Source of the DNA: Mycteria americana
Lineage: Eukaryota > Chordata > Aves > Ciconiiformes > Ciconiidae
Reading direction: 5' to 3'
Assembly: GCF_035582795.1 (NCBI RefSeq)
Contig: NC_134366.1
Coordinates: forward strand, 126,501-190,500
Length of the DNA: 64,000 nt
Part shown: positions 6,478 to 59,228 of the stretch, in pieces
Layout: the number at the start of each line of letters is the position of its first letter
Position numbering within the stretch: position 1 is the stretch's first letter
Program-made: the position numbers and the translations under genes
The notes under the pieces: generated by a model
Databases searched by the model: none
Told to the model about the DNA's origin: nothing
Seen by the model: only the letters and a program-made list of their open reading frames with translations

Positions 6478-9400
6478 CACAGAAGAGAATCACAGAATCA
6501 TTTAGGTTGGAAAAGACCTTTAAGATCCTCGAGTCCAACGTAAACCTAGCACTGCCAAGTCCACCACTAAACCATGTCACTAAGCACCACATCTACACGG
6601 CTTTTAAATACCTCAAGGGTTGGGGGCTCAACCACTTCCCTGGGCAGCCTGTTCCAGTGCTTGATAACCCTTTCGGTGAAGAAATATTTCCTAATAACTT
6701 GAGGCCATTTCCTCTCGTCCTACTGCTTGTTACCTGGGAGAAGAGACCAACCCCCACCTCGCTACAACCTCCTTTCAGGTAGCTGTAGAGAGCTATAAGG
6801 TCTCCCCTCAGCCTCCTTTTCTCCAGGCTAAACAACCCCAGTTCCCTTAGCCGCTCCTCATCAGACTTGTGCTCCAGATCCTTCACCAACTTCCTTGCCC
6901 TTCTCTGGACATGCTCAAGCACCTCAATGTCTTTCTTGTAGCAAGGGGCCCAAAACCGAACACCGTATTGGAGGTGCGGCCTCACCAGTGCCGAGTACAG
7001 GGGCACAATCACTGCCCTAGTCCTGCTGGCCACACTATTTCTGATACAAGCCAGGATGCCATTGGCTTTCTTGGCCACCTGGGCACACTGCTGGCTCATG
7101 TTCAGCCGGCTGTCAATGAATACCCCCAGATCCTTCTCCACTGGGCAGCTTTCCAGCCACTCTTCCTCAAGCTGTAGCGTTGCATGGGGTTGCTGTGACC
7201 CAAGTGCAGGACCCAGCACTTAGCCTTATTGAACTGCATACAATTGACCTTGGCCCATCGATCCAGCCTGTCCAGATCCCTCTGCAGAGCCTTCCTACCC
7301 TCAAGCAGATCAACACTCCTGCCCAGCTTGGTGTGGTCTGCAAACTTACTGAGGGTCACTCGATCCCCTCGTCCAGATCATTGATAAAGATATTAAGCAG
7401 AACTGGCCCCAATACTGAGCTCTGAGGAACACCGCTTGTGACCGGCTGCCAACTGGATTTAACTCCATTCACCACAGCTCTTTGGGCCCAACCATCCAGC
7501 CAGTTTTTTACCCAGCGAAGAGTACGCCCATCCAAGCCGTGAGCAGCCAGTTTCTCCAGGAGAATGCTGTGGGAAACCGTGTCAAAGGCTTTACTGAAGT
7601 CCAGGTAAATAACATCCACAGCCTTTCCCTCATCCACTAAGCAGGTCACCTTGTCATAGAAGGAGATCAGGTTAGTCAAGCAGGACCTACCTTTCATAAA
7701 CCCACGTTGGCTGGGCCTGGTCACCTGGTTGTCCTGAACGTGCTGCGTGATGGCACTCAAGATGATCTGCTCCGTAACCTTCCCTGGCACTGAGGTCAGG
7801 CTGACAGGCCTGTAGTTCCCCGGATCCTCCTTCCGGCCCTTCTTGTAGATGGGTGTCACGTTTGCTAATCTCCAGTCAACTGGGACCTCCCCAGTTAGCC
7901 AGGACTGCTGATAAAGGATTGAAAGTGGCTCGGTGAGCACTTCCATCAGCTCCCTCCGTATCCTTGGGTGGATCCCATCCAGCTCCATAGACTTGTGCGT
8001 GTCTAAGTGGTGTAGCAGGTCGCTAACAATTTCCCCTTGGATTATGGGGGCTCCATTCTGCTCCCTGTCCCTGTCTCCCAGCTCAGGGGGCTGGGTACCC
8101 CGAGAACAACTGGTCTTACTATTAAAGACTGAGGCAAAGAAGGCATTAAGTACCTCAGCCTTTTCTTCCTCCTTTGTCACCATGTTTCCCCCCCATCCAA
8201 TAAAGGACGGAGATTCTCCTTAGCCCTCCTTTTGTTGCTAATGTATTTATAGAAACATTTTCTATTGTCTTTTACAGCAGTAGCCAGATTAAGTTCCAGT
8301 TGGGCTTTGGCCCTTCTAATTTTCTCCCTGCATAACCTCACGACATCTTTGTAGTCCTCCTGAGTTGCCTGCCCCTTCTTCCAAAGATCATAAACTCTCC
8401 TTTTTTTCCTGAGTTCCAGCCAAAGCTCTCTGTTCAGCCAGGCCAGTCTTCTTCCCCGCCGGCTCGTCTTTCGGCACATGGGGACGGCCTGCTCCTGCGC
8501 CTTTAAGATTTCCTTCTTGAAGAATGTCCAGCCTTCCTGGACTCCTTTGCCCTTCAGGACTGCCTCCCAAGGGACTCTGTCAACCAGTCTCCTAAACAGG
8601 CCAAAGTCTGCCCTCTGGAAGCCCAAGGTAGCAGTTCTGCTGACCCCCCTCCTTACTTCTTCGAGAATCAAAAACTCTATCATTTCATGATCGCTATGCC
8701 CAAGATGGCCTCCAACTGTCACATCACCCACAAGTCCTTCTCTGTTCACAAACAAGAGGTCCAGCAGGGTGCTTTCCCTAGGTGGCTCACCCACCAGCGG
8801 TGTCAGAAAGGTTATCTTCCACACACTCCAGGAACCTCCTAGACTGTTTCCTCTCTGCTGTATTGTATTTCCAGCAGACGTCTGGTAAGTCGAAGTCCCC
8901 CACGAGAACAAGGGCTAGCGATCGTGAGACTTCTCCCAGCTGCTCATCAAATATTTCATCTGCCTCTTCATCCTGGTTGGGTGGTCTATAACAGAATCCC
9001 ACCATGATATCTGCCTTGTTGGCTTTTCCCCTGGTTCTTACCCATAAACACTCGACCCTTTCATCACTATCATTAAGTTCTAGACAGTTCCTAACATACA
9101 GGGCTAGCCCACCGCCTCTCCTTCCTTGCCTATCCCTTCTGAAGAATTTATAGCCATCCATTGCAGCACTCCAGTTGTGCGAGTCATCCCACCATGTTTC
9201 TGTGATTGCAACTATATCATAGTTTTCCAGCTGCACAATGGCTTCCAACTCCTCCCGTTTGTTGCCCATGCTACGTGCGTTGGTGTAGATGCACTCCAGT
9301 TGGGCCATTGATCCCACCACCTTTTTGGGGGGAGAAGCCCTAATTCCTGTGTGACTGTTCTCAGGCGCTTCCATGGTTTCTAACACATCGATAACCCTTG

Positions 9401-10720
9401 CATCTTCACTGCTGCATGGATCTCCATCCCCTACCTCCACTGAGACGGCAGACCAAAGGACCTCCCTAGCACACCGTCCCTCAAAGACTGGCATGCCACC
9501 CTCAGGCTTATCTCTAGCGAGCCTGGTTTTATCTCTTTCCCCCTTCAAATCTAGTTTAAAGCTCTTTCAATGAGCCCTGCTAGCTCCTGTGCAAAGATCC
9601 TTTTTTCCCTTTGAGGCAGATTATTCCCCGTCTGTCACCAGCAGACCTGGTGTTGTGTAGACCAACCCATGATCAAAACCCCAAAATTCTGCTGTGACAC
9701 CAGGCTCGGAGCCAGGTATTGATCTGCTGGCTCCTCCTGTTTCTTCCCTCATCATTCTCTGCAACTGGAAGGATAGACGAGAAGACTACTCGTGCTCCTT
9801 ATCCCTTAGCCAGTTATCCCAAGGCCCTGAAGTCTCTCTTGATTGCCCTCAGAGTTCTTGTTGAGACTTCATCGCTGCCTACCTGAGAAATCAATAATGG
9901 AGAATAATCTGAGGGCCATACCAGCGTAGGAAGCTTTCTCTTCACCTCTTTAACCTGGGCCCCAGGGAGGCAGCAGACTTCCCTAAGCAGTGGGTCCAGT
10001 TTGCATATTGGGCCTCCTGTTCCCCTCAGGAGAGAGTCTCCTATGACAATGACCCGTCTTTTTTTTTTTTTTTATGGAAGCGGTTTTGACACAAGGCATA
10101 GATCAACTTAACCTTGGCAACACCTCCAAGCTAGATGAACCATCATCCTCGTCACTGTTTGGTTCCATTTGCAGAGCCTCGTACCTGTTATGCAAGGGCA
10201 CCTGGGAAGGTGGGGTGGTCACGGAGGAGACACGCCTGCTGTGCCGGACAAGAACTTGTCGCCATTGCCCCCTATCCCTTAAGTCACCACCAGGTGATCC
10301 CTTAAGTTCAGCCAGGTGGAGAGAGGATAGGGAATCCTCCGTATCATGTGTCCTGTCTGCCTGACAGTCCTGTCCCAGGCAAGGTAGGGTGCAATTCCAG
10401 TAGTCTACCTCTCTCTAGGACTCCCTGATACTCCTCAACCTACTCACCTCCTCCCAGAGCTCTGTCACTAAGCGGAGGAGTTCCTCTTCCTGGGCGCACC
10501 TCCCACAGGTGTGCTCACTGCTGCCGTCCCGTACTGGCATAACAGTAGGAAGCCTAAGGAAGGCTTTAGAGCTATCTGGGCTAAACCATGCATTAACATC
10601 CAGAGAAAATGGCAAGTGACTCTCTTCTGCAGGGGATGGAGGCAATCATCTGCCGGCCAGACATGTTGTCATGGGAGGTTTGTTGTTAACTAGGGACCCT
10701 GATCCAGGTTGTTACAGGGA
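6478..10720 (-). mobile_element. Long CR1 LINE copy 1 (near full length, inactive)
   Basis: A CR1 non-LTR retrotransposon on the minus strand. Reading from the 5' side there are ORF1 remnants (CGRCAQEEELLRLV near 10480-10510; an SGNH/esterase-like VIVIGDSLLRGT near 10015-10060). ORF2 follows, with the apurinic-type endonuclease (9548-8787, NARSMGNKREEL, ITETWWDDSHNW), a linker (8911-8177), the reverse transcriptase (8183-7102, [33 protein letters not shown]) and the thumb/C-terminus to about 6593. The 3' tail ATTCTGTGATTCTC is at 6485-6500. ORF2 is broken: a 1-base insertion after the EDN codons near 8808, further frame changes near 8180 and 7100-7360, the RT motif FADD reading FADH, and a 25-base deletion near 6695 relative to copy 2. 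The 5' boundary is approximate (10,650-10,870). Confidence 0.95.
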
Positions 10721-13700
10721 GACTACTGAGGCTTGTCCACGCCTTGAACCCTCACCCCTTGCTGCTCATCCACATGGTGAATAAAAACACAGCCTAGGGA
10801 GTCCTGGAGGCAAATCAAGAGGGATGACAGAGCTCTGGGGGCACAGCTGAAGGACATGGCACCCCAGGTAATCTTCCTCACCTTACAGGTGCAGGAGAAG
10901 GCTCAGATAGGAGCAGATTTATCCTGCAAGTTAACAACTAGCTGTGTGACTGTGTCACAGACAGAGCTTTGGCTTCTGTGGCCATGGTTGCCTCTTTGAG
11001 GAATGAGAACTGCTAGCATGAGACAAGATTCATTTGACAACATGGTGCAGGAGCATCTTTGGCCACAGGCTTGCCAACCTGGTGAGGAAGAATAACAACC
11101 CAGTATGTTAGGCAAGGTGCTAACAGCTTGCAAGTTAAGTGAGGGAATGGAGACCAGGGGGGGAAGTACATGGTGCAAAGCAATGGGAGCGAGAGTGCCC
11201 TTGGGAAGGATAAAACAGATCTAAAGGGACTCACCTGAAGTGCCTGCACACAAACACACACAGCCTGGGAAACATGAAGTCCAATAAATTATTCCAAGCA
11301 TACATTTAAATTTTTGTACTTCAGAAACTCCCAGAGATATTAATTATCTGAAGGAAATGCTTATATAGACTCTAAGGCTAGAGGGCCTAGTACAACAATT
11401 TGACCTTATCTTATATACAATGGTACCATATCTATGCTATACCTCTGGCTCACTCTAGGAGAGTATTCAGGGCCAAGTACCATCATATTCCTCCCCTGTT
11501 TTCATACTCCTCCTTAAAGTTACTCTCAGCCACTATCAAAATATTGCATTACACCCATGACATGATCCAGGACAGCTGCTCCCACAGCATCAACCAACAA
11601 TCCCTCACTCAACAGATTCTTCACAGAATTTACTCTAACTTAAAAGCTATAAAGATGCTGGAAAGCCATGCAATCCTGATGTAAAGAATCCCAACGATCT
11701 AGGATCTACTGTGTCCTGACATCTGTTCTTCCACTGTTTAATTGTCCTTCTTGTAAAACTATGCCTTCATGTTTGAATTTCACTACTTATAGCTCCCAGA
11801 CATGCCTTTTGCACCTTACCAAGACTTCCTGGGCTGTGTGTGGCCACATACTTTAACTAATGGCAGGAGCAGCAATAATTCCTAAATTCACATAGAGCAA
11901 GAGGCAATGCTCATCTGTGCTACGCATATCAGATTAGAAATCCATGTCTTCATATAAAATGGCCTTGCAAATTATCTTCCCCTTTTAGATTCTTTAAAAT
12001 CAGAATAAAATCCCTCTGTCAACCTCCCTTGAGTGAATGAAATACAGCGAGTCCTTGTGGTTGCTCGCTATAAAACAGTATTAACTACATCTTTAATCTC
12101 TTTATACGTCTCTTCTGAACGCTTTTTCATATTCCATCAGTCTTCTTGAGGTACAGATACTAGAAACGGAACCTGTATTAGAGTAATATGCAGTAATGTC
12201 CCTAGAATGGCATCTGTTTTTATTCCTTTACTACCACAATCCCAAAGCCCACTTACAACTACTCTTTCTATAAAAATTCATCTGTGTGTTTCTCAATATA
12301 TGATCCTTGTATATTATTCCACAAAAAAATCAGGAGTGTTAAAAGGAACCTACCATATAAATCAACTACATAAATAGTCCAAATTGGTCGGTATATATAA
12401 CCTTCCCTATTATTCATCACTGCACTAATTCTGTCATCTGATATCTCCTTCTGTATATTTCCTCCTGCATCCAAGGATTCAGATTACTCTGTAACCTCAG
12501 TGCCAGCACAGCTCCACTGCTGACCAAGTGATGCAGCCTGTCACAAGAGCTTGAACTGGTCAAGAAATACATACTGGCCACCTCTGCATTAGGTGGCCTC
12601 TTGAAGTCTTTGGTGACTATACGTAAACAGCAACTTTCCTCAAAGAGAGCTCTGAGCCCCAGAAGAAGAAGTACCTGAGTCTATAATATCTAATAAATCT
12701 TACCATTGCCACTGGTTTTATACAGAAAGATAAATAATACAGAAGTGGGTAGTAAAATAAGTGAAAGCTACAACAAAGTGCAAATCTGTGAAGGGGGCTG
12801 TCACTAGGTGGTACTTATATGTAACACTGTAATGAAATGTTGAGCTTAACTATCTCTACTTCATCTGATTTGGATCTGAAAAAAAACCCAAATAATTTAC
12901 TGGGAAGAAAAAAGCTAATGCCAGACCTGCATTGCCTCTGAATAATGTTTCTACAGTCAGAAATCACGGAACATAAAATCATTAACTATCACTCCATTCC
13001 TGAGCACCGAAATGTCTCTGCTCTCAAAGTGAAGATAATATTATTTACCTTCACTGCAAAGAGGAAAAGTAAAGGTGAAGGGATAGATGTCTGCTCCTGG
13101 CCAATGGAACTGTGCTTATCAAAATGAATCCTCAGCCCTGTATGTGTCTTCACTCACACTAAGTCTGTGTGATGTGAGCTACATTGTGCACAGGTGTCTA
13201 ATTATTTTTCTGCCTTTCCTATGAAGTTCAAAGTGAAGGAACTTTTTCTGGGGCAGCAGATGTCAGGAAATGATAGCAGGGAAAAGTCTTAAAGAAAAGA
13301 ATGCACCCAACAGCAGGACAAACTCTTGCATTGCATGCTGGCAGGAACAAGAAGGAGACTGACCCACAGGCTATCTGCTAAGAAGCACTGCTTTGTTTTT
13401 GCAGAAATAGGGCCTAGCCAAAAGGCAACAAGCACTCTTCTTATCCATAGAATGAATATGAATATAGATGGTAGTACTTGTGCATACACTCTGTCACTGA
13501 CATGAAGTAACACGCCTTTTATGCATACTTATATCTTAAAAATATGAACAATCATCATGAAAATATATATGTACAGTGCTTTCTCAAAGACCAAATTGCT
13601 CCAGACAGAAAATACTCAATAGTAAGTATTAAAAACTCTGAATTTCAGTTACTTATGTTTAAGAAAACAGGAGCAATAGGGGAGAGCTCTTCATTTAAGA

Positions 13701-19700: not shown

Positions 19701-20199
19701 TTCTGCCATATTATCATCCAGTTTTGAAACACTATTCCCCAATCTTAAGAGACAGGTTTAGGTTCTACTGCACTGAATAATGTCACATTATCGGCTAATT
19801 TTGTTGCTTCATAATGAAGCTTCATTACCTCTTTAGAAATCATTCATCATACACTGAACACCAACAGGGAACCAAAAAGGCACTCCTTCCATTACAGAAA
19901 CTGAACATTTATTCGTCCTTCTGCAGCCACCACCTCAGCAGCTCCGGGGCCCAGGGATTCCACTAGTTCAGGTTAGTCCTCTCCAAAGCTATGCCTGTAG
20001 TTTCTTAATGGCTCGTCAATGAGTGAAAGTATACTTTTGGTCTTTGTCTCCATTATCCCTTGACTAGCAGGTTTGTGTCTCTCTGTGTTTTTCTTTAGCA
20101 CTTCCCCCATGTACTTATTATCCCCTTTGCACTGAAAACGTCCTTGGCTGCATAAACTTAATGAAGAAGAGGTGTACTCTCACCTTCCACATACCCTTA
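10721..20199. other. AT-rich intergenic DNA, no recognised gene
   Basis: About 9.5 kb without a recognisable gene, RNA gene or CR1 copy. Open frames are short and look like chance. The only clear local structure is a 33-base tandem duplication at 15195-15260. Ancient decayed repeats cannot be excluded by eye. Confidence 0.5.
15195..15260. repeat. 33-bp tandem duplication
   Basis: Two adjacent copies of a 33-base unit that begins CAGCAAAACAGTGCAGGGGA. The first starts at 15195 and the second at 15228. They match for about 29 bases before the second diverges at its end. No gene context. Confidence 0.85.
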
Positions 20200-23584: not shown

Positions 23585-24205
23585 GAAAGGATTCACCATC
23601 AGCCAGTTTCCTCAGGACCCTGACATGCATTTCATCAGGTCCCATGGACTTGTGTATGTTCAGGTTCCTCAGATGGTCTAAAACCTGATCTTATCCTACA
23701 ATGGGTGGGACTTCCTTCCTCCAGTCCCTGCCTTGAGATTCAGGGACTTGAGAGATTCAGGAGAGCAATCGCCAATGAAAACTGAGGGCGGAAAAAAGTT
23801 GTTGAGTACTTCAGCCTTCTCCATGTCAGTTGTCACCAGATTCCCTGTCTCATTTATTGGGGGGTACAATTTCTTTTTCTTCCTTGTCTGACTAGCGTAC
23901 CTGTAGAAGCCCTTCTTATTATTCTTCACATCCCTTGCCAAATGTAGTTCCAGTTGTGCCTTAGCTTTCCTGATCCCATCCCTACACTCCTGGGCAGTAT
24001 CCCTGTATTCTTCCCAGGATGCATGTTCCTGCTTCCACTTACTATGCATTTCCCTCTTGTGTTTCAGTTTGACGAGGAGGTCCTTACTTGGCCATGCTGG
24101 TTTCCCACCTTCCTTGCCTGATTTCTTGAACATGGGACTCGATAGTTCTTGTGCTCTAAGAAAAATGTCTGTAAATAGCTGCCAGCTCAAAGTCCAAATG
24201 AAGAT
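23585..24205 (-). mobile_element. CR1 LINE, inverted 5' segment
   Basis: A minus-strand CR1 segment covering the endonuclease-RT linker (KAQLELHLARDVKNNKKGFY, about 23910-23965) and the start of the RT region (EKAEVLNNFF near 23800-23825; then a KSMGPDEMH-like block near 23630-23655). It abuts the plus-strand remainder of a CR1 element at about 24205. Together the two halves look like one insertion whose 5' part is inverted and whose middle RT part is missing. Confidence 0.9.
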
Positions 24206-32930: not shown

Positions 32931-32960
32931 CAAGGATTTACCAAGACTCAATGAGAATTT

Positions 32961-39716: not shown

Positions 39717-40139
39717 ATAGAATCACAGAGTCATTTAGGTTGGAAAAGACCTTTAAGATCATAAAGTCCAACTGTTAACCTAGCACTGCCAAGTCCACCA
39801 CTAAACCATGTCCCTAAGCACCACATCTACACGTCTTTTAAATACCTCCAGGGATGGCAACTCCGCCACTTCCCTGGGCAGCCTGTTCCAATGCTTGACA
39901 ACCCTTTTGGTGAAGACATTTTTCCTAATACCCAATCTAAACCTCCCCTGGCACAACTTGAGGCCATTTCCTCTCGTCCTATTGCTTGTTACCTGGGAGA
40001 AGAGACTGACCCCCACCTTGGTACAACCTCCTTTCAGGTAGTTGTAGAGAGGGATAAGGTCTCCCCTGAGCTTCCTTTTCTCCAGGCTAAACAACCCCAG
40101 TTCCCTCAGCTGCTCTTCAGACTTGTGCTCTAGACCCTA
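39717..40139 (-). mobile_element. CR1 LINE 3' fragment next to CHPF2 3' end
   Basis: A 5'-truncated CR1 copy on the minus strand with about 97 codons of the ORF2 C-terminus still open ([20 protein letters not shown] through [20 protein letters not shown]). It has the same 3' tail as the two long minus-strand copies (TCATTTAGGTTGGAAAAGACC on the plus strand). It retains the 25-base segment that copy 1 (6478) has lost. It ends about 225 bases beyond the CHPF2 polyadenylation signal. Confidence 0.95.
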
Positions 40140-40587: not shown

Positions 40588-41850
40588 TCAAGTGCTGTTG
40601 GCCTGTTCCTGCTCGAAGAGGGCCATGGCTAAATGCGAGCGGGATGCAAGTCCTTCCAAGTTACTAAGCACACAGCGGTGGTATAACTCCTCACTAAGCC
40701 GGGGATTGCAGCTCCTCAGTGCGTATTTCTGCACTAACCCTGGCTCCACAGCCCTAAATAGGTGCAGACCAGAATAGTGGAGGAAGACATCAAATACCTC
40801 CATGCTCTCCAGCACCTCATCTCGGTCTAGTATATCAGCTGCTAGCTTGGTACGTGCTGTCATATAGTCAGAGTTATAAAAACAGGCCTCAGCAAATGAA
40901 TGTCTGTCAAAATGCCCATCCCTCAGGAAGTCAGTGCTGGAGGAAGCAGTCTGCTCACCACGGTACACCAATGCAGGGTTGAACTCTTGGAAATGCACTG
41001 GGAAAAAGACCTGCCAATTGCTGATAGTATTCATGCGGCAGCGGTTCAGGAACTCCATGTTGATTTCTGTCCAGACACTGGCCAAGAAGAACAGTGTATC
41101 CACAGGGTGCTTCTTTGAGACTATATCCATGAGTTTCACTTGTGATGGCACCTCAGTTTTAACACTAATCCAGGGGATTTTAACTTCTGCATAGCGTTTC
41201 TCCAGCTCTCCTACCATGGCTTTGACTCCAGCAAAAACATCCACCTGACTGACTCGCTGGGCATCATAGGGATGGTAGATGAAAAGCAAAGTCAGCAAAG
41301 CATTATCATGTGTGTCCAGTGTGTTCATAGCAAACATATCCAGGAAGTTTGCCACAAAATCCAGGTCCTGCACTGTCAAGGGAAGCACCAGTTGCACCCG
41401 TGTGGCCTCTGTCACATATGGCATGGGAATAATTTCCACCTTACTTAAGGGCCGCACCAAGCTCACTCGTTTGGCCAGAACATGACTGTGGCCTTTTTGG
41501 GTCACTGCCTCCAGCAGTAGGTCCAGTGTATATTCCATGCCCCGTGTCGGGTCAAAACGCCGATAGCCGTTCAGCAACTGCCGCTTGCTGAAGCGGAGCA
41601 GAGGCTGGTAGCGACTGTTAAGTTGCGCAAGTGCTGACTCAATGATTTCACTGACATCTGCTTTGCTGGCTCCAGAGAGCTCACACTTGGGGGAGCCATC
41701 AGGACAGGAGAAGAGGTGCTGCTCAGTGAAGTAGTCCCAGCTGATTACCTCAAAACGTGACTTTGGAAGAAATGGGGCATTAATGCCCACAGGCCATGTC
41801 AAGCCTGCCTCACCTGCAGGGGTCAATGATGTCAGGTTCCTGATCTGCAT
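40588..41850 (-). CDS. CHPF2: CHPF2 coding exon 4 (C-terminal transferase domain)
   Basis: The acceptor ctctttgcacag precedes 41850, and the exon opens with MQIRNLTSLTPAGEAGL. It runs 420 codons to a TGA at 40588-40590 and carries the whole second glycosyltransferase-like domain. An N-glycosylation sequon (NLT) lies at its start. Relative to mammals the NPALVYRGEQ to GHFDRHSF segment (about 40900-40980) is short, accounting for most of the length difference. Confidence 0.95.
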   Translation of the reverse strand: MQIRNLTSLTPAGEAGLTWPVGINAPFLPKSRFEVISWDYFTEQHLFSCPDGSPKCELSGASKADVSEIIESALAQLNSRYQPLLRFSKRQLLNGYRRFDPTRGMEYTLDLLLEAVTQKGHSHVLAKRVSLVRPLSKVEIIPMPYVTEATRVQLVLPLTVQDLDFVANFLDMFAMNTLDTHDNALLTLLFIYHPYDAQRVSQVDVFAGVKAMVGELEKRYAEVKIPWISVKTEVPSQVKLMDIVSKKHPVDTLFFLASVWTEINMEFLNRCRMNTISNWQVFFPVHFQEFNPALVYRGEQTASSSTDFLRDGHFDRHSFAEACFYNSDYMTARTKLAADILDRDEVLESMEVFDVFLHYSGLHLFRAVEPGLVQKYALRSCNPRLSEELYHRCVLSNLEGLASRSHLAMALFEQEQANST

Positions 41851-44271
41851 CTGTGCAAAGAGAGAACGCATACTGATCCCTACCACTTTCTCAAAGAGGT
41901 CCAGTCCATCTCCCACCCAAGCCTGCTTCACCACCTAGAACTGTATCTTGGTAGTATCACACCAGCAGTTTGGGATAACCTGGTGTCAGAAGTGCTATTT
42001 CTGAGACGCAGGACTATATCCTGTGTCCGGCTGATGGTCACCTACAAACAGAAGCAATAATCTTCCTTCACTGTGTTTAAAGAAAAGGAAACCTGTTTGG
42101 TTGAGGAGTTTTTGCAGATATCCCTCACCACATACCTGCAGGTCCTGGATCTCCTGGTAGGCTCTGTCCAGCTGGATCCTGCTGAAGTGCTTATGCAGCC
42201 GGTACATCAGAGTCATGTCGGAAACAGGGTGCACAGCAAGAGCTGCTTGGAACTCCTCTTCTTCCTCCTTCTCTGGCTCAGTATTTTTGGCCAATTCATA
42301 GGTGTGATAATGCTGGCCCTGAAGTGGACAAGAGCCATAAAGACTGGCATGGAGCTCGAGTTCACAGAGAAGCCTTCCCTCACCCCAGACATGCATTTGG
42401 CCCTCTGTCCATGCTGACTGCAGTACCCAGAGATGAAAATAAAAGAGTTGTCCCCACCTGCCCTACCACCTATACTACATGTCCACTTGCTTCTTGGTAC
42501 CAATGTGCCCTTTATCCAACCTCCAAAAACCTGTGGATCAGCATCTGCTAGTAGGCTGAAAATTAAATCCTGTATGTGCTCTCATCCCCAACGTCTCAGC
42601 TTTGATTATGGGCCTCTCCCCAGTGCTGCCACACCACACAGCCCTTTCCTCCTCTGTAACTCACAGCAGAGGTTCACAGAAAAGTCCCTGTGTTATGCAG
42701 CAGGGAACTAGTAAGAGCATGGGGTCTGTCAGGCTTAGCTAACACAAAACCCTGAGAAAGGAGGTAGTACCTGGAGCTGGGAAACACAAGCAATGCCAAG
42801 GAAATCGATGATGCAACGTCCCAGCCACTCATCTGGCCGCACACTAAGGATCTCATTGCGACAGCTGTCCAGGTGCGGATGGAGCTTAAGCAGCAGACTG
42901 CGGGAGATCAGGTAGCCAAAGCCACCATGACAATAGCGGGCCTGCTCATCCCCCCCGATAAACTCCTCTGCTCGTCCCAAGTAGACATCTTGGTTAATAC
43001 TTAGGTGCGTCACCAGAGCCTTGACCTGTTCGGCCTGGGCATAGGTGTCATCCTGCATGATGTAGAACCAGTCATAGTCAGAACCAAAATGCTGATGGAT
43101 ATAGTGCATGGTCTCATACATGAGCCAAATGGGACGCTCATCCCCATGGGCCACCAGCACCATGCCATGAGGCACCTTGGCACTGCGCAACCCTGTAAAG
43201 TACAGCAGGCGTGGGAAGTGATGGGCTACCGTCTTGTTCACTGCCACTGCCAACGTATTCAGGGTAGCCTTGGAGGTCAGCACAGCCACAAACAGTCTTT
43301 CATGGAATCCCAATTCTGTCTGGATGTAGCGAGTTCTGCAAAGGAAGGACATACCCACATGACAAACAGCTGGATGACAAAAATCAAAGGGTTATGGTAA
43401 CTTGGGATAAGTCTTTATCTGCTGGAGTCTACCAATGGTGAAACAGTTAAGTCTAAAGGTAGAGCTTTAAGAAAAGATTCACTAGTAAAAATCCCATTTT
43501 GTAAAAATACTTGCTTCCTTCAAGGAAACTACAATCTCACATCATTTATCCGAGCTAGGAAACTGTACTAGTGTAAGTAACAAAAAAAAAACCCTACCAA
43601 ACCAAAAAAACCAGAGCTAACTACTTGCAAGTTACATACATTATTATTAATTGCTCAAAATTTTCCTAATGAATAGACTGTCTAAAAGAGTTTTGAAGAA
43701 TAATTTAACATGTTCCATAAGTCACAAGTAATAAAAGAAGAAATATTCTCAATCTTCTTGGGTGTTTTTGTTGCCTTTTTTTTTTAAATTAACTTCTTAG
43801 ACACTTCTCTTGCACCCCTTTAAGGTAACAATCTTAGCCATTGTCTTGTTGCATCATGCTGTTACTACATAAGGTATTTCAAATATCACATTCCACCTTG
43901 AACCTGGTAACTCACTGGAAGATTTAGAACCCTAAATACCATTCATATGTGATTATTTTCCTTGACGGAAAGCCTGGCCAAAAGAACAGATTTTACCTGA
44001 GCACTTTTTTGTAAGGCTTGTTGGGGTCTCTGTAGTACGGAACAATCCTAGGCCTGAAGTCCTCGTGGCCCGGGCCTGGCCCTCCATCCGCTGCCTCCAG
44101 ACGCGCTCCGCCGGCGAAAGGCCCAGGACGGCCCGCTGCCCCCAGGCACTGGTCCTCGCCTCCGCTCTGGCTCCAGGAGGCACGCAGCAGGCTCAGGCTG
44201 CAGCCAAGGGAGAGGCCCAGGACGAGCGGCAGCACGGGCCGCAGCGCAGCCAGCAGCGCAGCCAGGCGCAT
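40588..44271 (-). CDS. CHPF2: CHPF2, chondroitin polymerizing factor 2 / glucuronyltransferase
   Basis: Four coding exons on the minus strand: 43997-44271, 42771-43335, 42136-42318 and 40588-41850, all with GT-AG junctions. They join in frame to 761 residues, close to the roughly 770 of the mammalian protein. This is a type II Golgi membrane glycosyltransferase of the chondroitin synthase family. It adds glucuronic acid to, or helps polymerise, the GlcA-GalNAc chain of chondroitin sulfate. Visible features are an N-terminal signal anchor at residues about 3-29 (leucine-rich), a PRIVPYYRDPNKPYKK stem segment, an N-terminal beta3-glycosyltransferase-like domain with QDDTY at 186-190, and a C-terminal domain containing SRFEVISWDYFTEQHLF, LLNGYRRFDPTRGMEYTLDL and DVVSKKHPVDTLFF (in the form DIVSKKHPVDTLFF). 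The C-terminus MALFEQEQANST is typical of the family. The start is the first ATG after the CpG island and precedes the anchor. The gene is head to head with ABCF2. No frame damage was seen. Confidence 0.97.
42136..42318 (-). CDS. CHPF2: CHPF2 coding exon 3
   Basis: 61 codons from GQHYHTYELAKN to YQEIQDLQ, bounded by cacttcag and CAG|gtatgt. It contains a run of glutamates (EKEEEEEF) and the conserved HPVSDMTLMYRLHKHF segment linking the two catalytic-type domains. Phase 0 at both ends. Confidence 0.95.
42771..43335 (-). CDS. CHPF2: CHPF2 coding exon 2 (N-terminal transferase domain)
   Basis: 565 bases bounded by tttgcag and CAG|gtacta, from TRYIQTELGFHERL to GIACVSQLQ. It contains the Rossmann-like start (LFVAVLTSKATLNTLAVAVN), the acidic metal-binding-type motif QDDTY, the YLGRAEEFIGG and ARYCHGGFGYLISRSLL blocks, and DEWLGRC. 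The first base completes an Arg codon split with exon 1. Confidence 0.95.
43997..44271 (-). CDS. CHPF2: CHPF2 coding exon 1 (signal anchor and stem)
   Basis: 91 full codons from MRLAALLAALRPVLPLVLGL to NKPYKKVL plus two bases, then donor CTCAG|gtaaaa. It encodes the membrane anchor and a low-complexity, Gly/Ala-rich stem. The ATG has a purine-poor but GC-rich context (cgccgccATGC). A possible 5'UTR donor lies further upstream at 44578 (CTGCAG|GTGAGAG), so the transcript probably has an extra non-coding exon. Confidence 0.93.
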
Positions 44272-45191
44272 GGCGGCGCTGGAGCCAGCGGAGCCCCGGC
44301 GGGGCGACGTCCAGCCGCGGGGCAGTCCGGTACGGTCCGGGCGGGAGGTGGCGGCCGCAGGCCCGCTACGTTCGGGGCGGGCTCACGGGGCCGCTCCGGC
44401 GCTCGGGGAGCCGGCGGCCGCGGGACATCGCCGGCGCGGGGCACTCGGGCGGCACGGGGCGGGCAGCGGCGGGGCCTGCGGGACAGCGGGCCGGCAAGAG
44501 CGCGGTAGCCCCCGCGGGGCCGCGTACCGGCCCCCGACGCTAGCCCGCGTGGGTCAGCAGCCCCGGGGCTCTCTCACCTGCAGGCAGGGCGGCCCTTCTG
44601 CGCGCAGGCCGGTGGCAGGACCGAGGGCGGCCCGAAGCTCCGTGCCGGGGGCGCGGGGGAAGACAGCGGCTCCCGCCCGGCCGCGCTCCCGCCGCTGCCA
44701 CCTCAGCCGCCACATCGCGACCCTCACGCGCTTCCGCTTCCCCTTTTCTCTCTATGGTGCACCGGCGGCCACTCTACCTGGTGGCGCCGTCGCCTCTATG
44801 GTACCGCGAGCCACCGCCCCCCGCGCGCTCACGTCGCGCGCCGGACCCTGCCCGCGGCGGGCTCGCCGTGCGCCGGGGGTGGGGCCTGGGGCCAGTCCCG
44901 GCGCGAGCAGCGCGGTGCACGCCGGGACGCGCAGTGCCCGGGAGCCGGCGGCGCGCTCCGGCCCAGCCGGCGGAGGGAGCGCGAACTCCACTTCCCAGAG
45001 CCGCGCGGCCGCCCGGTGCGGGTGACGCTTCGCGCTCCGATTGGCCCCTGTTCCGGGGGGGGTGGGGCGTGCGCACGCGGTAGCAGCTGTCCTGTTGCGA
45101 CAGAAGGAAAGCGCGGACCAGCCGGTGCGGGCCGGGCGGGCGGCGCGGGTTGGGCCTGGCGGCGCGGCGCGGCGGAGCAGGCGGCGGCGGC

Positions 45192-45246
45192 GGAGGAGGA
45201 GGAGGAGGAGGAGGAGGAGGAGGAGGAGGAGGAGGAGGAGGAGGAG
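45192..45246. repeat. (GGA)n trinucleotide repeat in shared promoter
   Basis: About 18 uninterrupted GGA units follow a short GGC run. The tract is about 220 bases upstream of the ABCF2 ATG, probably in its first exon or proximal promoter. Polyglutamate/polyserine open frames across it are not real proteins. Confidence 0.95.
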
Positions 45247-45465
45247 TGGGACGGACTGGGTTGGGCAGCGCGGCGCGGGCAGCCTAGCGGGCGGGCGGGC
45301 GTGGAGCCCTCGGCCGGGCCCGGCGGCGCCGCGTGCTCCGGGCCGGGGCGGGCGGAGCGCGGGGCCGCCGAGGCGGGGAACTGGGGCGGGGCGGCCCGGT
45401 GCGGGCCGGATCGGCGCGCCCTAACGGCGCCTGTCGCACCTCTGCCGCAGCCCCTCCGCCGCGCC

Positions 45466-45619
45466 ATGCCCTCGGACCTGGCCAAGAAGAAGGCGGCCAA
45501 GAAGAAGGAGGCGGCCAAGGCCCGGCAGCGGCCGCGCCGGGCCCCGGAGGAAAACGGCGATGCCGGGACGGAGCCGCAGGAGGTCCGTCCCCCGGAGGCC
45601 AACGGAACGTCGCTGCCAG
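45466..45619 (+). CDS. ABCF2: ABCF2 coding exon 1 (basic N-terminal tail)
   Basis: 51 codons plus one base, ending CTGCCAG|gtgaga. It encodes the strongly basic tail followed by an acidic, low-complexity stretch ([13 protein letters not shown]). Local GC content is very high because the exon lies in the promoter CpG island. It joins exon 2 through a split Glu codon. Confidence 0.93.
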
Positions 45620-48600
45620 GTGAGACACGGCCCCGCCGTAATGCCAGTCCCGCTGCGCCGGCAGGTGCCTGACTTGTGTCCGTGCGCCCCGCGGGGGACA
45701 GTGCTGCAGGTGGTCCGGTGCACCCGACTGGGTGCCCTCGGTGGGGGTCAGCCTGGCAGCCCCATGTGTTCCGGTGCAGGGAGTGTCCAGCCAGGGCCTG
45801 TTCATGGACAGGACTGTACACATTCGGTTGTGCCCTCGGCTTAGTGAACTGGGACATGTGTTCCTCTTCAGATGAAATACCTCGCGGGCATGGGCTTGTG
45901 CTGAGCCGGGCCAGCTGCAGTGTCTACCATTAGGGCCACTCTCTCTCCTGTGAGCCAGCAGGACACCTACAGCAATTTGTGGTGGCTCTCCATAAACTGC
46001 ACAGGTGAAGGATTCCCTTGGCCCTCTCTTGAGGCTTGCAGAGTAAAGATAGATGATGCTGATGGGGTCTTTTCCCTCTCAAACAGATACTGTCCCGCTC
46101 TTCTGGTATTTGATGCCCAGACCTGTTTGGTTTTTTTGTTTTGTTTTGTTTTTTCCTGCTGCAGGAACCACTGTAGTGTCTGAATTCTTACTGTTCTTGC
46201 TGATATTGCTATGACCCTCTGTTCATCTGTTTCTCTGGGACATATCTCGTTTGCAGAAACTAAGAGCCTGGCTATCTTAATGAAAGAGACTTTGTCAATA
46301 AAGAGCTGTTGACCTCCCTAAAGGAAATAGGCAAGGTAAAGCTTACAGAGAGAGAGTTTATTTTTTGTCCTTACTTTAGCCCACCTGGTAACCCACAGGC
46401 TGTTGGGCACACAAGTTTTTTTCAGGCTCAGGCCACAGTGCGCTGTTTTAAGAGGCACTCTGCGTGTGACACAGAGACCTAGGGCAGCCACAGGCACGGG
46501 GGTCAGGAGGGCAGGGCGAAGGGGCTGGTCTCCCGAGGAGCCCGCTCCTTGCCAGTGCCCCCGCGGTCCCCACGCAAGCTCTTGAGCGCTGGTGCTGGCG
46601 GCATCTGCGCCTGGCGGCCGGGCTGGTGGGCTCGGAGCACAGGCAAGGCGCTGCCAATGCCCGAACGCGACTTCGGCCCGGTCACCGCAGCCTGGCGCTG
46701 ACGCGGGCGGCTCGGGTGTCCGCCGCGGCGGGGCGACCCTGGGGCCGGGCCCGGCCCGGCGCCGCCGGCTCCGGGCGGGGACTCGGCGCCCGCCCGGACC
46801 GAGCCGGCCAACCGCCGTCCGCTCCCACTGCTCATTTGCGTACCGCCTTCCTATTGGTGAAGCCTGGGGAGCCGCGGCAGGGGTGGCGGGGCCGGGCCGT
46901 GGGCTCTCCGCGTCCCGTGTCCCCCCCCCCCCGCCCCGGTCTCCTCCGGGACCGGGCTGCTCTGCGGGGAGCGCTCCGCCTGCAGCTGCGAGCGGCACTG
47001 TGGAGGGTAGTACAGGCAGGGCCGGCGCCGGTGGCTCAGGTTGCTGAAGAGCAGAGGTGGTGAGCAGGCGTTGGGAGTCAAGGGGAGGCTGGTAAAGTAG
47101 TGCAGACATCAGAGGGCAGGTTATGTGCGTTGGGTATGTGCATATTTCTTATTGGCAGTTCCCTGTGAAATAATTGCACATCAAGGATGTGCCTTGCCCC
47201 TCTTTTCGCTCACCTGGTTTGCTTGTTAATGTAGCTGGTCTACTTGCACTGCCCGTGCTTTCAAAGGGTGTCCTGTGTCAGTGCAGTTGACATTTTTTGC
47301 TCCTTTTTGGCTAAGGCACATTTCCCTTGGTAATAATAGTGATTTTGCTGAGTGAGTGATTTTGCCAGGAATGCTAGATGTTGACAGCCAGGGTGCTATC
47401 CCTCAGTGGCCTGAACACCAGGTTTCTGCTCTGTGCAGCTGGAGTATTGCTGAGATCCTTAGTGCCATTTTCTTCTTCAAATGGCAGTGTCTCACCAAGG
47501 AGTGAAAACTGGACTGTAACTCAGGGCTGCAACAGAAGATCAGTGCAACAGGAAAGATTTGCTTATACTGATTTGCTTATACTGAGGAAAGGAAGAGGAG
47601 GGCATGCATATGGACATATTAACTTCTCAAAAAATTGGTAGGGCTTATTCCAATGCTGCTGCTTCTTTCCTCCTCTCAGCTTTCCCTTCATTTATTTTCT
47701 AGCCAAGTTCTCTTTTGGCCAGCCCTTTCCTTAAGCTTGCAAGCGATACTTCGTAAGTTCTCTTCCCACCCCAGTCCTTCTTGCAGTGAGGGTTAATCCC
47801 ATCATACTTGGACAACAGGCTAACTGTTCTGGCTGCTCGCTTAGTTCTAATGGTCAGATTTGATTTAGAGAGCAGATGAAAGTTCCTGTTAGACCATATA
47901 TATCCATCTGCTAAGCTGAAAAGCTGAGTGTCATTGCATCTGGGCCTCAACATTTCTGTAGAAATGGGGATGTGAGAATTGTTTTTGTGGTCCTGGGCCT
48001 ATTGGTACAGGGGCTTATGGCTTCCCTTGTATTTGTAAATCAGTAACACTTCTGGTCTGTCTCTGCATATAGAGGTGGATGCTCTTACAAAGGAGCTGGA
48101 GGACTTTGAATTAAAGAAAGCTGCTGCCCGTGCTGTGACAGGAGTGCTGGCCTCCCATCCCAACAGCACTGATGTGCACATCATTAACCTCTCGCTGACC
48201 TTCCATGGCCAGGAGCTGCTGAGTGATACAAAACTCGAGCTGAACTCCGGGAGGCGCTACGGCCTGATTGGACTCAATGGGATTGGTAAGCTGTGGGGCA
48301 CAGTGACGTGGGCTTCTTGGAGCTTGGTGAAGATTCTGTGCTGCTGAGAAGCTGGACAGATGCAGGTGGTAAATGCTGGAAACCGGAAAGAAGGCTGTTA
48401 GACAGACATGGCTGGGACACGGCACTTTCCGTTCTCCCATCTCTCCACCCAGAAAGAGGACTTGCTAGGATTGCTGGTAGAAGTATGAGGTTGCATTCTG
48501 GCTTTGGACTGTGCATTTGAACTTGTTTCTGTGGAGAGTTGGACGAGATGTCTGGGATCTGTGAATCTGTTTGATTCTGGTTTGCAGGATTTGTTTAGCA

Positions 48601-54600: not shown

Positions 54601-55587
54601 TGCTCTGGCAGATGCTATCAATGAATTTGAAGGAGGAATGATGCTCGTCAGCCATGACTTCAGACTCATCCAACAGGTAAGAAAAATAGTGAATTTTCTC
54701 AGAGCACCTTTCTAACACTTTAAGTAATTAAAACAAGGTGTTTTCAACTGACTGGCTCTTACTCATCCCAAAAAGATGTGTGAGTGAAAAAAAAAAAAAC
54801 TCACTGGACATGATTCCCTTGCCGTGGTCATGTGAAACAATTACTGAGCTAGCCTAGGAAAACATTAGGTACTTGAATAGAAAAAGAAAAAACCAAAACC
54901 CTAGAAGTGAAGAATAAGTTAAATGGAAATCATGACACACTGTGGAGGCCTTAACTAGTTTTTTGGGTTTTTTTTAAATTATACTGGAGTAGTTCTAGCA
55001 CAGTTCTTTATGACTCAGTCTGCACAGGCAAAGGAAATTGCACCACATACACACAAATGTCAAGTGCTGATTTATCAGCTATAGCTTTGTCTGCAAGTTC
55101 AGGTATAATTTTATCTTTCAGTGCATTATATCCAAGTAGTTCAGGTCAAGAACTACTTTCTTCAATTCCCAATTTAGCAAGAAAGGCTTTCCTTCTTAGT
55201 CCATGTACAAAAAAAGAAATGTTGAGGGATCAAGGATTTTTAGTTCTAAAATCTTGTATAAATTACATAGAAAACACCAGGTAAGATACTTCGCTGCAGA
55301 TATTTTTCTTGGTAGCTGAAGTGTGAAAGCTATTAAACTCTTTTATTACCAGACTTCAGAGAGTAGATTTTGGTTAATTATATAATTTTACTAAAATTAT
55401 AAAATGCTGTACTGTAAACTTCTCCTCCTCCTTGTGTGCTTGCTTTCAGGTTGCACAGGAGATCTGGGTCTGTGAGAAGCAGACAATCACAAAGTGGCAA
55501 GGCGACATCCTCGCCTACAAGGAACATCTCAAGTCAAAGCTGGTGGATGAGGATCCGCAGCTCACCAAAAAGACCCACAATGTGTGA
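45466..55587 (+). CDS. ABCF2: ABCF2, ATP-binding cassette subfamily F member 2
   Basis: Fourteen coding exons on the plus strand: 45466-45619, 48073-48285, 49219-49401, 49734-49905, 50059-50154, 51304-51406, 51492-51587, 51695-51814, 52368-52457, 52695-52805, 53065-53127, 53595-53723, 54473-54676 and 55450-55587. All junctions are GT-AG and they join in frame to 623 residues, the usual length of the family member. It is a soluble protein with two ABC ATPase domains and no membrane segments, of the ABC-F class that acts at or near ribosomes; the exact cellular role of ABCF2 is less settled. The N-terminus ([20 protein letters not shown]) is lysine/alanine-rich. Domain 1 has Walker A GLNGIGKS (118-125), signature FSGGW (229-233), Walker B MLLLDE (249-254) and switch His283. 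Domain 2 has Walker [10 protein letters not shown] (430-438), signature LSDGQ (517-521), Walker B MLFLDE (537-542) and switch His571. All catalytic motifs are intact. Confidence 0.98.
45620..48072 (+). other. ABCF2: ABCF2 intron 1 with internal CpG island
   Basis: A 2.45 kb intron from gtgaga to ctgcatatag. It contains a second, discrete CpG island at about 46,500-47,060 (separate entry). The remainder has ordinary composition with T/GTTTT runs near 46130-46155. No coding exon was seen within it. Confidence 0.85.
46500..47060. promoter_or_regulatory. Second CpG island in ABCF2 intron 1
   Basis: About 560 bases of CpG-rich sequence separated from the main promoter island by roughly 850 bases of ordinary composition. 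It contains an inverted CCAAT box (attgg) at 46853-46857, an octamer-like atttgcgta about 20 bases upstream, and a C run followed by a GC-box-like cccgcccc near 46921-46938. It could be an alternative ABCF2 promoter, an antisense promoter or an enhancer. The open frames on both strands across it look like GC-driven artefacts. Confidence 0.6.
48073..50154 (+). CDS. ABCF2: ABCF2 exons 2-5 (first ATPase domain)
   Basis: Exons 48073-48285, 49219-49401, 49734-49905 and 50059-50154 encode most of ATPase domain 1. The Walker A lysine is at the exon 2/3 junction: its preceding Gly codon is split by the intron. Exon 4 carries the signature motif ([13 protein letters not shown]) and exon 5 Walker B and the D-loop ([14 protein letters not shown]). 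The introns hold nothing recognised. Confidence 0.96.
50155..51303 (+). other. ABCF2: ABCF2 intron 5
   Basis: A 1.15 kb intron from gtaagc to gtgtcacag. Moderately T-rich (T runs near 50600-50625). A small local repetition of gtgaaccctgtgaa and ttcacttgtgaaga motifs is near 51010-51060. No additional exon was recognised. Confidence 0.8.
51304..51814 (+). CDS. ABCF2: ABCF2 exons 6-8 (H-loop and inter-domain linker)
   Basis: Exons 51304-51406, 51492-51587 and 51695-51814. Exon 6 carries the switch-histidine loop LISHSQDF. Exons 7-8 encode the long charged helical linker typical of ABC-F proteins ([40 protein letters not shown]), which in family structures inserts between the two ATPase domains. 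Confidence 0.96.
52368..55587 (+). CDS. ABCF2: ABCF2 exons 9-14 (second ATPase domain and C-terminus)
   Basis: Exons 52368-52457, 52695-52805, 53065-53127, 53595-53723, 54473-54676 and 55450-55587. Exon 10 holds Walker A, and exon 13 holds the signature, Walker B, D-loop and switch histidine in one piece. Exon 14 ends [15 protein letters not shown] followed by TGA. Exon 13 begins GTGAGC, which itself looks like a splice donor just after the acceptor (gtcag|GTGAGC); this does not disturb the frame. Confidence 0.96.
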
Positions 55588-56014
55588 GCTCTAGAGCAGT
55601 CGGTCAGGTGCTCTCTATGGAGACTGACAGTGGCCAATGTGACTCACTCAGCTGCCGACTGGAATGGGACTCTGCTGCTATCTCTGTGGCTGTGTTCTAG
55701 GATTGCTGCAATACTGCTTCCCCTTGACTTGCCTTGCACCTCTATATCTGGACAGATCTCTTCTCTCCTGATCTGGCTATGTTTGGGCAACCATTTGCAT
55801 ATTTAGATGACGTCCCATCTGAGCCAGGCCTTGGAATCTAATGGTCTGGGGTCATGGCAGTGGCAGTTAAGGTGTCTGAGCTGCAGGGATACAGAAGTGG
55901 AGACCCCAAGCCCACCTTCTCCTGCCTCTTCCTTCCCCATTTCTGCTTCAGTTTAGACACTTCACTTCAAACTCCTCTGGCCTTGGTTTGTTTTTAACTA
56001 TTATTTAACAGTGT

Positions 56015-56052
56015 AATAAACAGATCTGCCTGAGAATCCATCAGTCAATAAA
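56015..56052 (+). terminator. ABCF2: ABCF2 polyadenylation signals
   Basis: Two AATAAA hexamers at 56015-56020 and 56047-56052, about 430-465 bases after the stop codon. A GT-rich stretch (cttgtcttgttttctgagctgt) follows at 56067-56090, as expected for a downstream cleavage element. The next CR1 copy begins at about 56100. Confidence 0.85.
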
Positions 56053-56099
56053 GAGGGAAGAACAGTCTTGTCTTGTTTTCTGAGCTGTAGTAGTTATTA

Positions 56100-59000
56100 C
56101 TAGAATTACAGAATTGGTAAGACCTTTAAGATCAAGTCCAACCACTCACCTAGCACTGCCAAGTCCACCACTAAAACACACCTACATGGCTTTTAAATAC
56201 CTCCAGGGATGGGGACTCCGCCACTTCCCTGGGCAGCCTGTTCCAATGCTTGACAACCCTTTTGGTGAAGAAATTGTTCCTAATATCCAGTCTAACCCTC
56301 CCCTGGTGCAACTTGAGGCCATTTCCTCTCATCCTATGGCTTGTTACCTGGGAGAAGAGACCAACCCCCACCTCGCTACAACCTCCTTTCAGGTAGCTGT
56401 AGAGAGCTATAAGGTCTCCCCTCAGCCTCCTTTTCTCCAGGCTAAACAACCCCAGTTCCCTCAGCCATTCCTCATCAGACTTGTGCTCCAGATCCTTCAC
56501 CAACTTCCTTGCCCTTCTCTGGACATGCTCAAGCACCTCAATGTCTTTCTTGTAGCAAGGGGCCCAAAACCAAACACCGTATTGGAGGTGCGGCCTCACC
56601 AGTGCCGAGTACAGGGGCACAATCACTGCCCTAGTCCTGCTGGCCACACTATTTCTGATACAAGCCAGGATGCCATTGGCTTTCTTGGCCACCTGGGCAC
56701 ACTGCTGGCTCATGTTCAGCCGGCTGTCAATGAATACCCCCAGATCCTTCTCCACTGGGCAGCTTTCCAGCCACTCTTCCTCAAGCTGTAGCGTTGCATG
56801 GGGTTGCTGTGACCCAAGTGCAGGACCCAGCACTTAGCCTTATTGAACTGCATACAATTGACCTTGGCCCATCGATCCAGCCTGTCCAGATCCCTCTGCA
56901 GAGCCTTCCTACCCTCAAGCAGATCAACACTCCTGCCCAGCTTGGTGTGGTCTGCAAACTTACTGAGGGTCACTCGATCCCCTCGTCCAGATCATTGATA
57001 AAGATATTAAGCAGAACTGGCTCCAATACTGAGCTCTGAGGAACACCGCTTGTGACCGGCTGCCAACTGGATTTAACTCCATTCACCACAGCTCTTTGGG
57101 CCCAACCATCCAGCCAGTTTTTTACCCAGCGAAGAGTACGCCCATCCAAGCCGTGAGCAGCCAGTTTCTCCAGGAGAATGCTGTGGGAAACCGTGTCAAA
57201 GGCTTTACTGAAGTCCAGGTAAATAACATCCACAGCCTTTCCCTCATCCACTAAGCAGGTCACCTTGTCATAGAAGGAGATCAGGTTAGTCAAGCAGGAC
57301 CTACCTTTCATAAACCCACGTTGGCTGGGCCTGGTCACCTGGTTGTCCTGAACGTGCTGCGTGATGGCACTCAAGATGATCTGCTCCGTAACCTTCCCTG
57401 GCACTGAGGTCAGGCTGACAGGCCTGTAGTTCCCCGGATCCTCCTTCCGGCCCTTCTTGTAGATGGGTGTCACGTTTGCTAATCTCCAGTCAACTGGGAC
57501 CTCCCCAGTTAGCCAGGACTGCTGATAAAGGATTGAAAGTGGCTCGGTGAGCACTTCCATCAGCTCCCTCCGTATCCTTGGGTGGATCCCATCCAGCTCC
57601 ATAGACTTGTGCGTGTCTAAGTGGTGTAGCAGGTCGCTAACAATTTCCCCTTGGATTATGGGGGCTCCATTCTGCTCCCTGTCCCTGTCTCCCAGCTCAG
57701 GGGGCTGGGTACCCCAAGAACAACTGGTCTTACTATTAAAGACTGAGGCAAAGAAGGCATTAAGTACCTCAGCCTTTTCTTCCTCCTTTGTCACCATGTT
57801 TCCCCCCCATCCAATAAAGGACGGAGATTCTCCTTAGCCCTCCTTTTGTTGCTAATGTATTTATAGAAACATTTTCTATTGTCTTTTACAGCAGTAGCCA
57901 GATTAAGTTCCAGTTGGGCTTTGGCCCTTCTAATTTTCTCCCTGCATAACCTCACGACATCTTTGTAGTCCTCCTGAGTTGCCTGCCCCTTCTTCCAAAG
58001 ATCATAAACTCTCCTTTTTTTCCTGAGTTCCAGCCAAAGCTCTCTGTTCAGCCAGGCCAGTCTTCTTCCCCGCCGGCTCGTCTTTCGGCACATGGGGACG
58101 GCCTGCTCCTGCGCCTTTAAGATTTCCTTCTTGAAGAATGTCCAGCCTTCCTGGACTCCTTTGCCCTTCAGGACTGCCTCCCAAGGGACTCTGTCAACCA
58201 GTCTCCTAAACAGGCCAAAGTCTGCCCTCTGGAAGCCCAAGGTAGCAGTTCTGCTGACCCCCCTCCTTACTTCTTCGAGAATCAAAAACTCTATCATTTC
58301 ATGATCGCTATGCCCAAGATGGCCTCCAACTGTCACATCACCCACAAGTCCTTCTCTGTTCACAAACAAGAGGTCCAGCAGGGTGCTTTCCCTAGGTGGC
58401 TCACCCACCAGCGGTGTCAGAAAGGTTATCTTCCACACACTCCAGGAACCTCCTAGACTGTTTCCTCTCTGCTGTATTGTATTTCCAGCAGACGTCTGGT
58501 AAGTCGAAGTCCCCCACGAGAACAAGGGCTAGCGATCGTGAGACTTCTCCCAGCTGCTCATCAAATATTTCATCTGCCTCTTCATCCTGGTTGGGTGGTC
58601 TATAACAGAATCCCACCATGATATCTGCCTTGTTGGCTTTTCCCCTGGTTCTTACCCATAAACACTCGACCCTTTCATCACTATCATTAAGTTCTAGACA
58701 GTTCCTAACATACAGGGCTAGCCCACTGCCTCTCCTTCCTTGCCTATCCCTTCTGAAGAATTTATAGCCATCCATTGCAGCACTCCAGTTGTGCGAGTCA
58801 TCCCACCATGTTTCTGTGATTGCAACTATATCATAGTTTTCCAGCTGCACAATGGCTTCCAACTCCTCCCGTTTGTTGCCCATGCTACGTGCGTTGGTGT
58901 AGATGCACTCCAGTTGGGCCATTGATCCCACCACCTTTTTGGGGGGAGAAGCCCTAATTCCTGTGTGACTGTTCTCAGGCGCTTCCATGGTTTCTAACAC

Positions 59001-59228
59001 ATCGATAACCCTTGCATCTTCACTGCTGCATGGATCTCCATCCCCTACCTCCACTGAGACGGCAGACCAAAGGACCTCCCTAGCACACTGTCCCTCAAAG
59101 ACTGGCATGCCACCCTCAGGCTTATCTCTAGCGAGCCTGGTTTTATCTCTTTCCCCCTTCAAATCTAGTTTAAAGCTCTTTCAATGAGCCCTGCTAACTC
59201 CTGTGCAAAGATCCTTTTCCCCCTTTGA
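56100..59228 (-). mobile_element. Long CR1 LINE copy 2 (5'-truncated, inactive)
   Basis: A CR1 copy on the minus strand, nearly identical to copy 1 over 56470-59196. It contains the endonuclease (59162-58401), linker (58525-57791), RT (57797-56716) and the ORF2 C-terminus to about 56171. It is cut off at about 59228, before any ORF1 sequence, so it is 5'-truncated, as usual for LINEs. It carries the same 1-base ORF2 insertion after the EDN codons (near 58422), the same further frame changes and the same FADH in place of FADD (near 56940) as copy 1. It keeps the 25 bases that copy 1 lacks near its 3' end. It begins about 50 bases past the ABCF2 polyadenylation signal, antisense to ABCF2. Confidence 0.96.

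Follow-up and report, generated by a model that had tools for sequence, protein, structure and literature searches.

Introduction

Gene conversion between copies of transposable elements is known, and in the parts of PMC6598467 and PMC8230782 that treat it most studies concern Alu elements and others concern long terminal repeat (LTR) elements. Non-allelic gene conversion among Alu copies is given there a range of about 10 kb and is strongest among neighbours (PMC8230782, PMC6598467). Here we describe two copies, A and B, of the long interspersed nuclear element (LINE) CR1 in a window of 64,000 bases, which comprises bases 126501-190500 of contig C2 in the 1.35-Gb genome of Mycteria americana. 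Comparison of the two copies suggests that interlocus (non-allelic) gene conversion made them alike over about 2.86 kb, a reading to which we give a probability of about 0.93.

As in primate Alu conversion, so far as the sources above describe it, old and dispersed retroelement copies appear to have been partly overwritten, mostly by neighbours. Unlike Alu, with units of about 300 bases and a range of about 10 kb in those sources, the element is a LINE, the tract measures 2.86 kb and copies A and B lie 49.6 kb apart. Conversion between duplicated genes offers a second parallel, with a plateau of identity set in divergent homologous flanks and private mutations common to both copies within the tract. 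Mean conversion tracts in yeast and rodent (Chinese hamster) systems are about 200-500 bases in the portion of PMC3924818 on which we draw; the A/B tract, unlike these averages, is several times longer and runs through DNA that was probably near 10% divergent. The element itself is ordinary: like the CR1 retrotransposons of birds it has endonuclease and reverse transcriptase domains, 5' truncation and many copies, and it is the later exchange that is unusual. Among the titles and abstract openings listed by the literature searches, no description of gene conversion between CR1 copies was found.

Results

Copies A and B are separate insertions

All comparisons were made within this one genome assembly and on assembled sequence only; L-numbers denote CR1 copies and C-numbers contigs of the same genome. 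The best 40 candidates of each similarity search were scored, and the core of the two copies was compared with a set of 27 other long CR1 copies.

Copy A occupies positions 6486 to about 10549 of the window on the minus strand, with its 3' end at the low coordinate, and homology to other genomic copies extends to 10549. Copy B, also on the minus strand and truncated at its 5' end, occupies 56102 to about 59242; of 39 other matches to it, one reaches 59245 and the remainder end at 59242 or one base earlier, and in a second comparison no match passes 59242. Both copies contain, on the minus strand, pieces of a reverse transcriptase (7356-8183 in A, PF00078, E 1.1e-26; 56970-57797 in B, PF00078, E 2.8e-25) and of an endonuclease (8787-9548 in A, PF03372, E 6.7e-11; 58401-59162 in B, PF03372, E 1.5e-10), the two domains by which CR1 non-LTR retrotransposons are recognized; the family name CR1 is our own presumption rather than a database assignment. 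The 3' ends of CR1 elements carry short ATTCTRTG-like repeats, and decayed ATTCTGTG-like units, judged by eye, stand at the 3' ends of A and B. Four of five minus-strand frame pieces have identical ends in the two copies, and the fifth has a common start and a different end, which falls within the divergent 3' end. Both copies are old and dead elements.

Copies A and B are two independent CR1 insertions in the same orientation, 49.6 kb apart, because their 5' ends differ and their outer flanks are unrelated. Copy A outruns the end of copy B by about 920 bases (9630-10549, minus strand), a stretch of ordinary CR1 that has no counterpart in B and is matched by other copies. Comparison of about 1 kb of outer flank on each side gave only one 12-base match (E 0.47), which is a chance similarity. 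At the 3' end copy A carries deletions of 25 bases and 1 base, while copy B carries deletions of 10, 3 and 15 bases; at the positions where the deletions of 25, 10, 3 and 15 bases begin, the 23-25 other copies with coverage show no gap. The best other matches, among the best 40 candidates scored, reach 89% for 6486-6855 of copy A and 91% for 56102-56470 of copy B.

The identity plateau and its limits

The earlier note had reported that the core 6856-9582 aligns to 56470-59196 at a constant offset of 49,614 with about five differences, and both statements proved exact: the two cores differ at five of 2,727 sites (6958, 7408, 8102, 9113 and 9475). Over the whole shared element 42 differences were counted in 3,115 aligned sites and their distribution is markedly uneven, with 5/2,727 in the core and 37/388 outside it (hypergeometric P = 3.4e-29), so that the sharp plateau within divergent homologous flanks described there is real. 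When the alignment was scanned for its strongest block of low divergence, 6729-9579 came out with a likelihood ratio of 66, whereas 300 shuffles gave 9.8 at most.

The limits of the plateau required revision. It opens near 6725 and not at 6856: no A/B difference lies in 6725-6847, and the state at 6794, common to A and B, is absent from all other aligned copies. The putative conversion tract is accordingly drawn at 6725-9582 in copy A and, with the same length of 2,858 bases and the same offset, at 56339-59196 in copy B. As drawn it holds eight differences, which corresponds to 99.7% identity; three of these, at 6848, 6853 and 6854, lie in a patch at 6848-6854 (56462-56468 in B), and this 7-base patch was probably left unconverted.

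Beyond the tract lie the divergent 3' ends, 6486-6724 in copy A, with its private 25-base deletion at 6695, and 56102-56338 in copy B, with the three private deletions given above. That the 3' ends are divergent and carry a 25-base indel had been correctly noted, but the extent was understated at about 16 positions, since 28/342 aligned sites differ in 6486-6855. Likewise, the opposite edge (9583-9629; 59197-59242 in B) is divergent as claimed, with nine of 46 aligned sites differing in the multiple alignment instead of the four positions given; pairwise alignment of the same edge yields six substitutions and one gap. Eight of the nine sites are changed in A only and one is different in both copies. 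This edge ends near 9629 at the 5' truncation point of copy B, while CR1 sequence goes on in copy A to about 10549, a continuation that the earlier note had not recorded.

Shared and private changes

Compared with the majority state of the 27 other copies, the cores of A and B show 170 shared departures, none that is private to A and five that are private to B. From this comparison onward L025, the twin of L026, was omitted. Unique states, scored at sites covered by at least six of the 27 copies (coverage is lowest towards the 5' side), are shared by A and B at 52 positions, all within 6794-9486. The core deletions common to A and B comprise three of 1 base, found in 0/27 of the other copies, and one of 9 bases, found in 1/21, and every deletion that is private to A or to B lies outside the tract. 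In the left end (6486-6855) there are 10 shared non-majority states, 10 that are A-only, 17 that are B-only and one site different in both, and the single unique state shared there is that at 6794. A typical pair of copies is about 10% different in the core (median identity 90.3%, 406 pairs), and the next-best match to 7000-8000 reaches 91% among the best 40 of 7,824 first-look candidates. The core thus has one mutational history in A and B, and the ends have largely separate histories.

The five core differences are all C-to-T or G-to-A changes on copy B, and four of them are at CpG sites. Divergence from the majority does not decide which copy was the donor (24/370 in the left end, 170/2726 in the core and 38/422 in the 5' part of A; 31/368 in the left end of B).

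Other neighbouring CR1 pairs

Pairs of CR1 copies elsewhere in the genome were compared by two measures, the lowest-divergence 600-base window and the number of uniquely shared states. Ten local pairs including A/B, from eight neighbourhoods, share 13-52 unique states, against no more than 4 (median 0) in any of 425 non-local pairs. The three pairs on C11 among the ten are not independent of one another. The backgrounds for this contrast and for the window measure omitted L036, L027 and L030, which were set apart as a distinct subfamily; also omitted were pairs joining B to any copy but A, and those with fewer than 1,500 aligned sites. In its least divergent 600-base window each of eight local pairs differs by 0 to 2.7%, L020/L026 by 4.3% and L012/L070 by 4.8%; the non-local minimum is 4.8%.

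The local pairs other than A/B are separated by 79 kb to about 1.3 Mb. They are L011/L022 on C14 (417 kb apart, opposite strands), L031/L038 on C1 (1.16 Mb apart), the trio L014, L067 and L068 on C11 (10.70-11.04 Mb, within 334 kb, mixed strands and different 5' ends), L016/L069 on C3 (about 95 kb apart, opposite strands), L024/L071 on C6 (about 127 kb apart), L020/L026 on C33 and L012/L070 on C2. For the local pairs on C14, C1, C11, C3 and C6, between 0.4 and 2.1 kb of flank was compared, and no sharing was found there. The members of the C11 trio are independent insertions that are pairwise 96-97% alike, with divergence falling inwards from the 3' end, and they resemble a conversion cluster with three members.

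Six of the ten local pairs, namely L011/L022, L031/L038, L024/L071 and those on C11, are least divergent at about A positions 7,950-8,850, and this holds also for the two C11 pairs whose shared part stops near 8,400. Divergence in A/B is flat within the tract, and L016/L069, L012/L070 and L020/L026 show a weak trend or none. Part of the trend is general, because the non-local pairs, with means of 0.078-0.116 per 300-base segment, are also lowest at 7986-8285 and highest at the 3' end. The rest might be explained by a recombination-prone stretch or by abundant 3' ends being overwritten by other copies.

Clustering of similar copies was also assessed by permutation. For 16 close pairs among 44 copies none of 20,000 permutations reached the observed mean similarity, a result that is biased by the similarity-ranked sampling. 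A fairer test used six queries, namely copies for which the similarity lists had shown no neighbour within 1.2 Mb (L015, L017 and L018, for example, are not among them). For three of the six (L012, L016 and L024) the top-scoring other copy lay within 1.4 Mb on the same chromosome, and random positions, if the clustering of CR1 is ignored, predict such a local best hit in about 0.2% of queries.

L036 (C1:173503952) is like the others over most of its length and, in the pairs listed, 37-55% different outside a block ending near A 9262-9307; it is probably another subfamily or a mosaic. Plateau likelihood was dropped as a sole criterion, as the seven pairs ranking next below A/B also involve L036 and L020/L026 ranks only 276th of 435. 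With L036, L027 and L030 kept in the set, 374/378 pairs share at most five unique states, the others being L027/L030, L020/L026 and two more local pairs.

Discussion

Support for interlocus gene conversion, which the earlier note had proposed, comes from three observations on A and B: they are independent insertions, they share private changes in the core, and the shared block is bounded by divergent homologous sequence. Gene conversion is favoured because the flanks are unrelated, the plateau stands in divergent homology and the private changes are shared only in the tract. Most likely, synthesis-dependent strand annealing would have used one copy to mend a break in the other. Synthesis may have continued to near-exhaustion of the homology, stopping about 240 bases before the 3' end and about 47 bases before the 5' truncation of B, with the 7-base patch retaining old differences. 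A single event would account for this, and several successive or overlapping events, each easing the next, are the alternative. Substitutions accumulate at a rate near 2e-9 per site per year. At that rate 5/2,727 would place the conversion roughly half a million years ago, and the age may be lower since four of the five core changes are CpG-type.

Several observations weigh against this account of A/B. As the product of one event in DNA that probably differed by about 10%, a tract of 2.86 kb is long, and it is unusual because published means are 200-500 bases. The plateau score alone is nonspecific, as six non-local pairs involving L036 outscore A/B in the scan of 435 pairs; these high scores probably reflect another subfamily near the 5' end of L036. 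The left end is not free of signal, for it holds the 10 shared non-majority states, three of which, in 6746-6855, lie inside the tract as drawn. Lastly, the 5 (B) to 0 (A) split of the core changes (two-sided, about 0.06) is unexplained.

An artefact, in which the core of one copy was replaced by that of the other in assembly, gap filling or polishing, survives best among the other explanations and is still improbable. The window begins 126.5 kb from the contig start, where assemblies may be weaker. Against this, the true cores would have been about 10% different and hence easily distinguished, and an internal replacement requires two switches in one element. Five differences moreover persist between the cores, all on B and four of the CpG type, and other local pairs show related patterns with graded, older divergence, which polishing would not be expected to produce.

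Much less probable is that A and B are two recent insertions from a single young low-copy source, as might be argued from the finding of just two copies of the core among the best 40 candidates of each search. The ends are old and unlike each other, with best other matches of 89% and 91%, the private deletions are confined to them, and the 5' lengths are unequal although the dead frames agree. Hardly more credible is chimeric reverse transcription, by which B would be a recent insertion that arose when reverse transcription switched template to a copy A transcript. A mosaic element is likewise expected from that process, but two template switches and the mobilisation of a dead element would be required, and the 3' end of B, which should then be young, has a best other match of 91% (best 40) and carries deletions of 10, 3 and 15 bases that are absent from the other aligned copies. 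The other local pairs, with their differing 5' ends, would be left unexplained. Segmental duplication or unequal exchange of a CR1-bearing stretch is just as improbable and was rejected, since the A/B similarity does not extend into unique flanks on either side and the high-identity block ends inside the element on both sides, even though such duplicates are present in this genome, L025 and L026 being 99.98% identical over 5,358 bases including flanks. The latter pair (C33:6823546 and C33:6771627) is a segmental duplication with members about 52 kb apart and forms a contrast to A/B.

With interlocus gene conversion as the preferred account, the A/B pair is a further case of a known process, and the neighbourhood pattern is a new lead and the more interesting of the two. 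We lean slightly towards the view that CR1 copies of this genome evolve partly in concert with their neighbours, with conversion acting repeatedly to about 1 Mb and in both orientations, and that where the tract recurs, between the reverse transcriptase and the endonuclease, the element may be prone to recombination.

A number of points count against such concerted evolution. Only six of the ten pairs show the recurring centre, and three pairs entered the set because they were best hits. The contrasts between local and non-local pairs are partly biased, since similar neighbours enter similarity-ranked lists together; L069, L070 and L071 were picked as best hits while for L013, L019 and L021 the strongest non-local matches were left out, so that the ten pairs are not like-for-like with the 425. 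Five of the 16 close pairs, all on C33 or C228, are at 91-92%, which is the background range. A local best hit was absent for three of the six queries in the fairer test (L013, L019 and L021), and the neighbour of L012 is weak, at 89% overall and with a lowest 600-base window of 4.8%, equal to that of the lowest non-local pair. Finally, 14 unique states are common to L027 and L030 (on C228 and C3), which are not known to be close to each other, and this equals the number in the local pair L020/L026. C33 and C228 possibly belong to a poorly recombining chromosome such as the W. Two further close pairs on C33 are at 93-94%, and on the remaining contigs all nine close pairs reach at least 93%.

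Between copies A and B the window carries a gene on the minus strand at 40591-43391 with CHGN (chondroitin N-acetylgalactosaminyltransferase) and Fringe-like domains, probably CHPF or CHPF2. Just past its 5' side, GC content is 75% in 44001-46000, possibly a CpG-island promoter. A third, short CR1 3' end lies at 39719-40138, with identity of 85% to A and 87% to B, outside the high-identity pair. The direct repeat of 2.86 kb that flanks the CHGN gene might serve as a substrate through which the intervening 49.6 kb is deleted or duplicated.

The ages and trees of avian repeats are often read from divergence, and conversion by a neighbour resets this clock locally and yields mosaics. If neighbourhood conversion is true, divergence-based ages of such CR1 copies are wrong. 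Should the wider pattern be borne out, the decay of non-allelic conversion with distance and divergence among old LINEs could be measured in long-read genomes of this kind.

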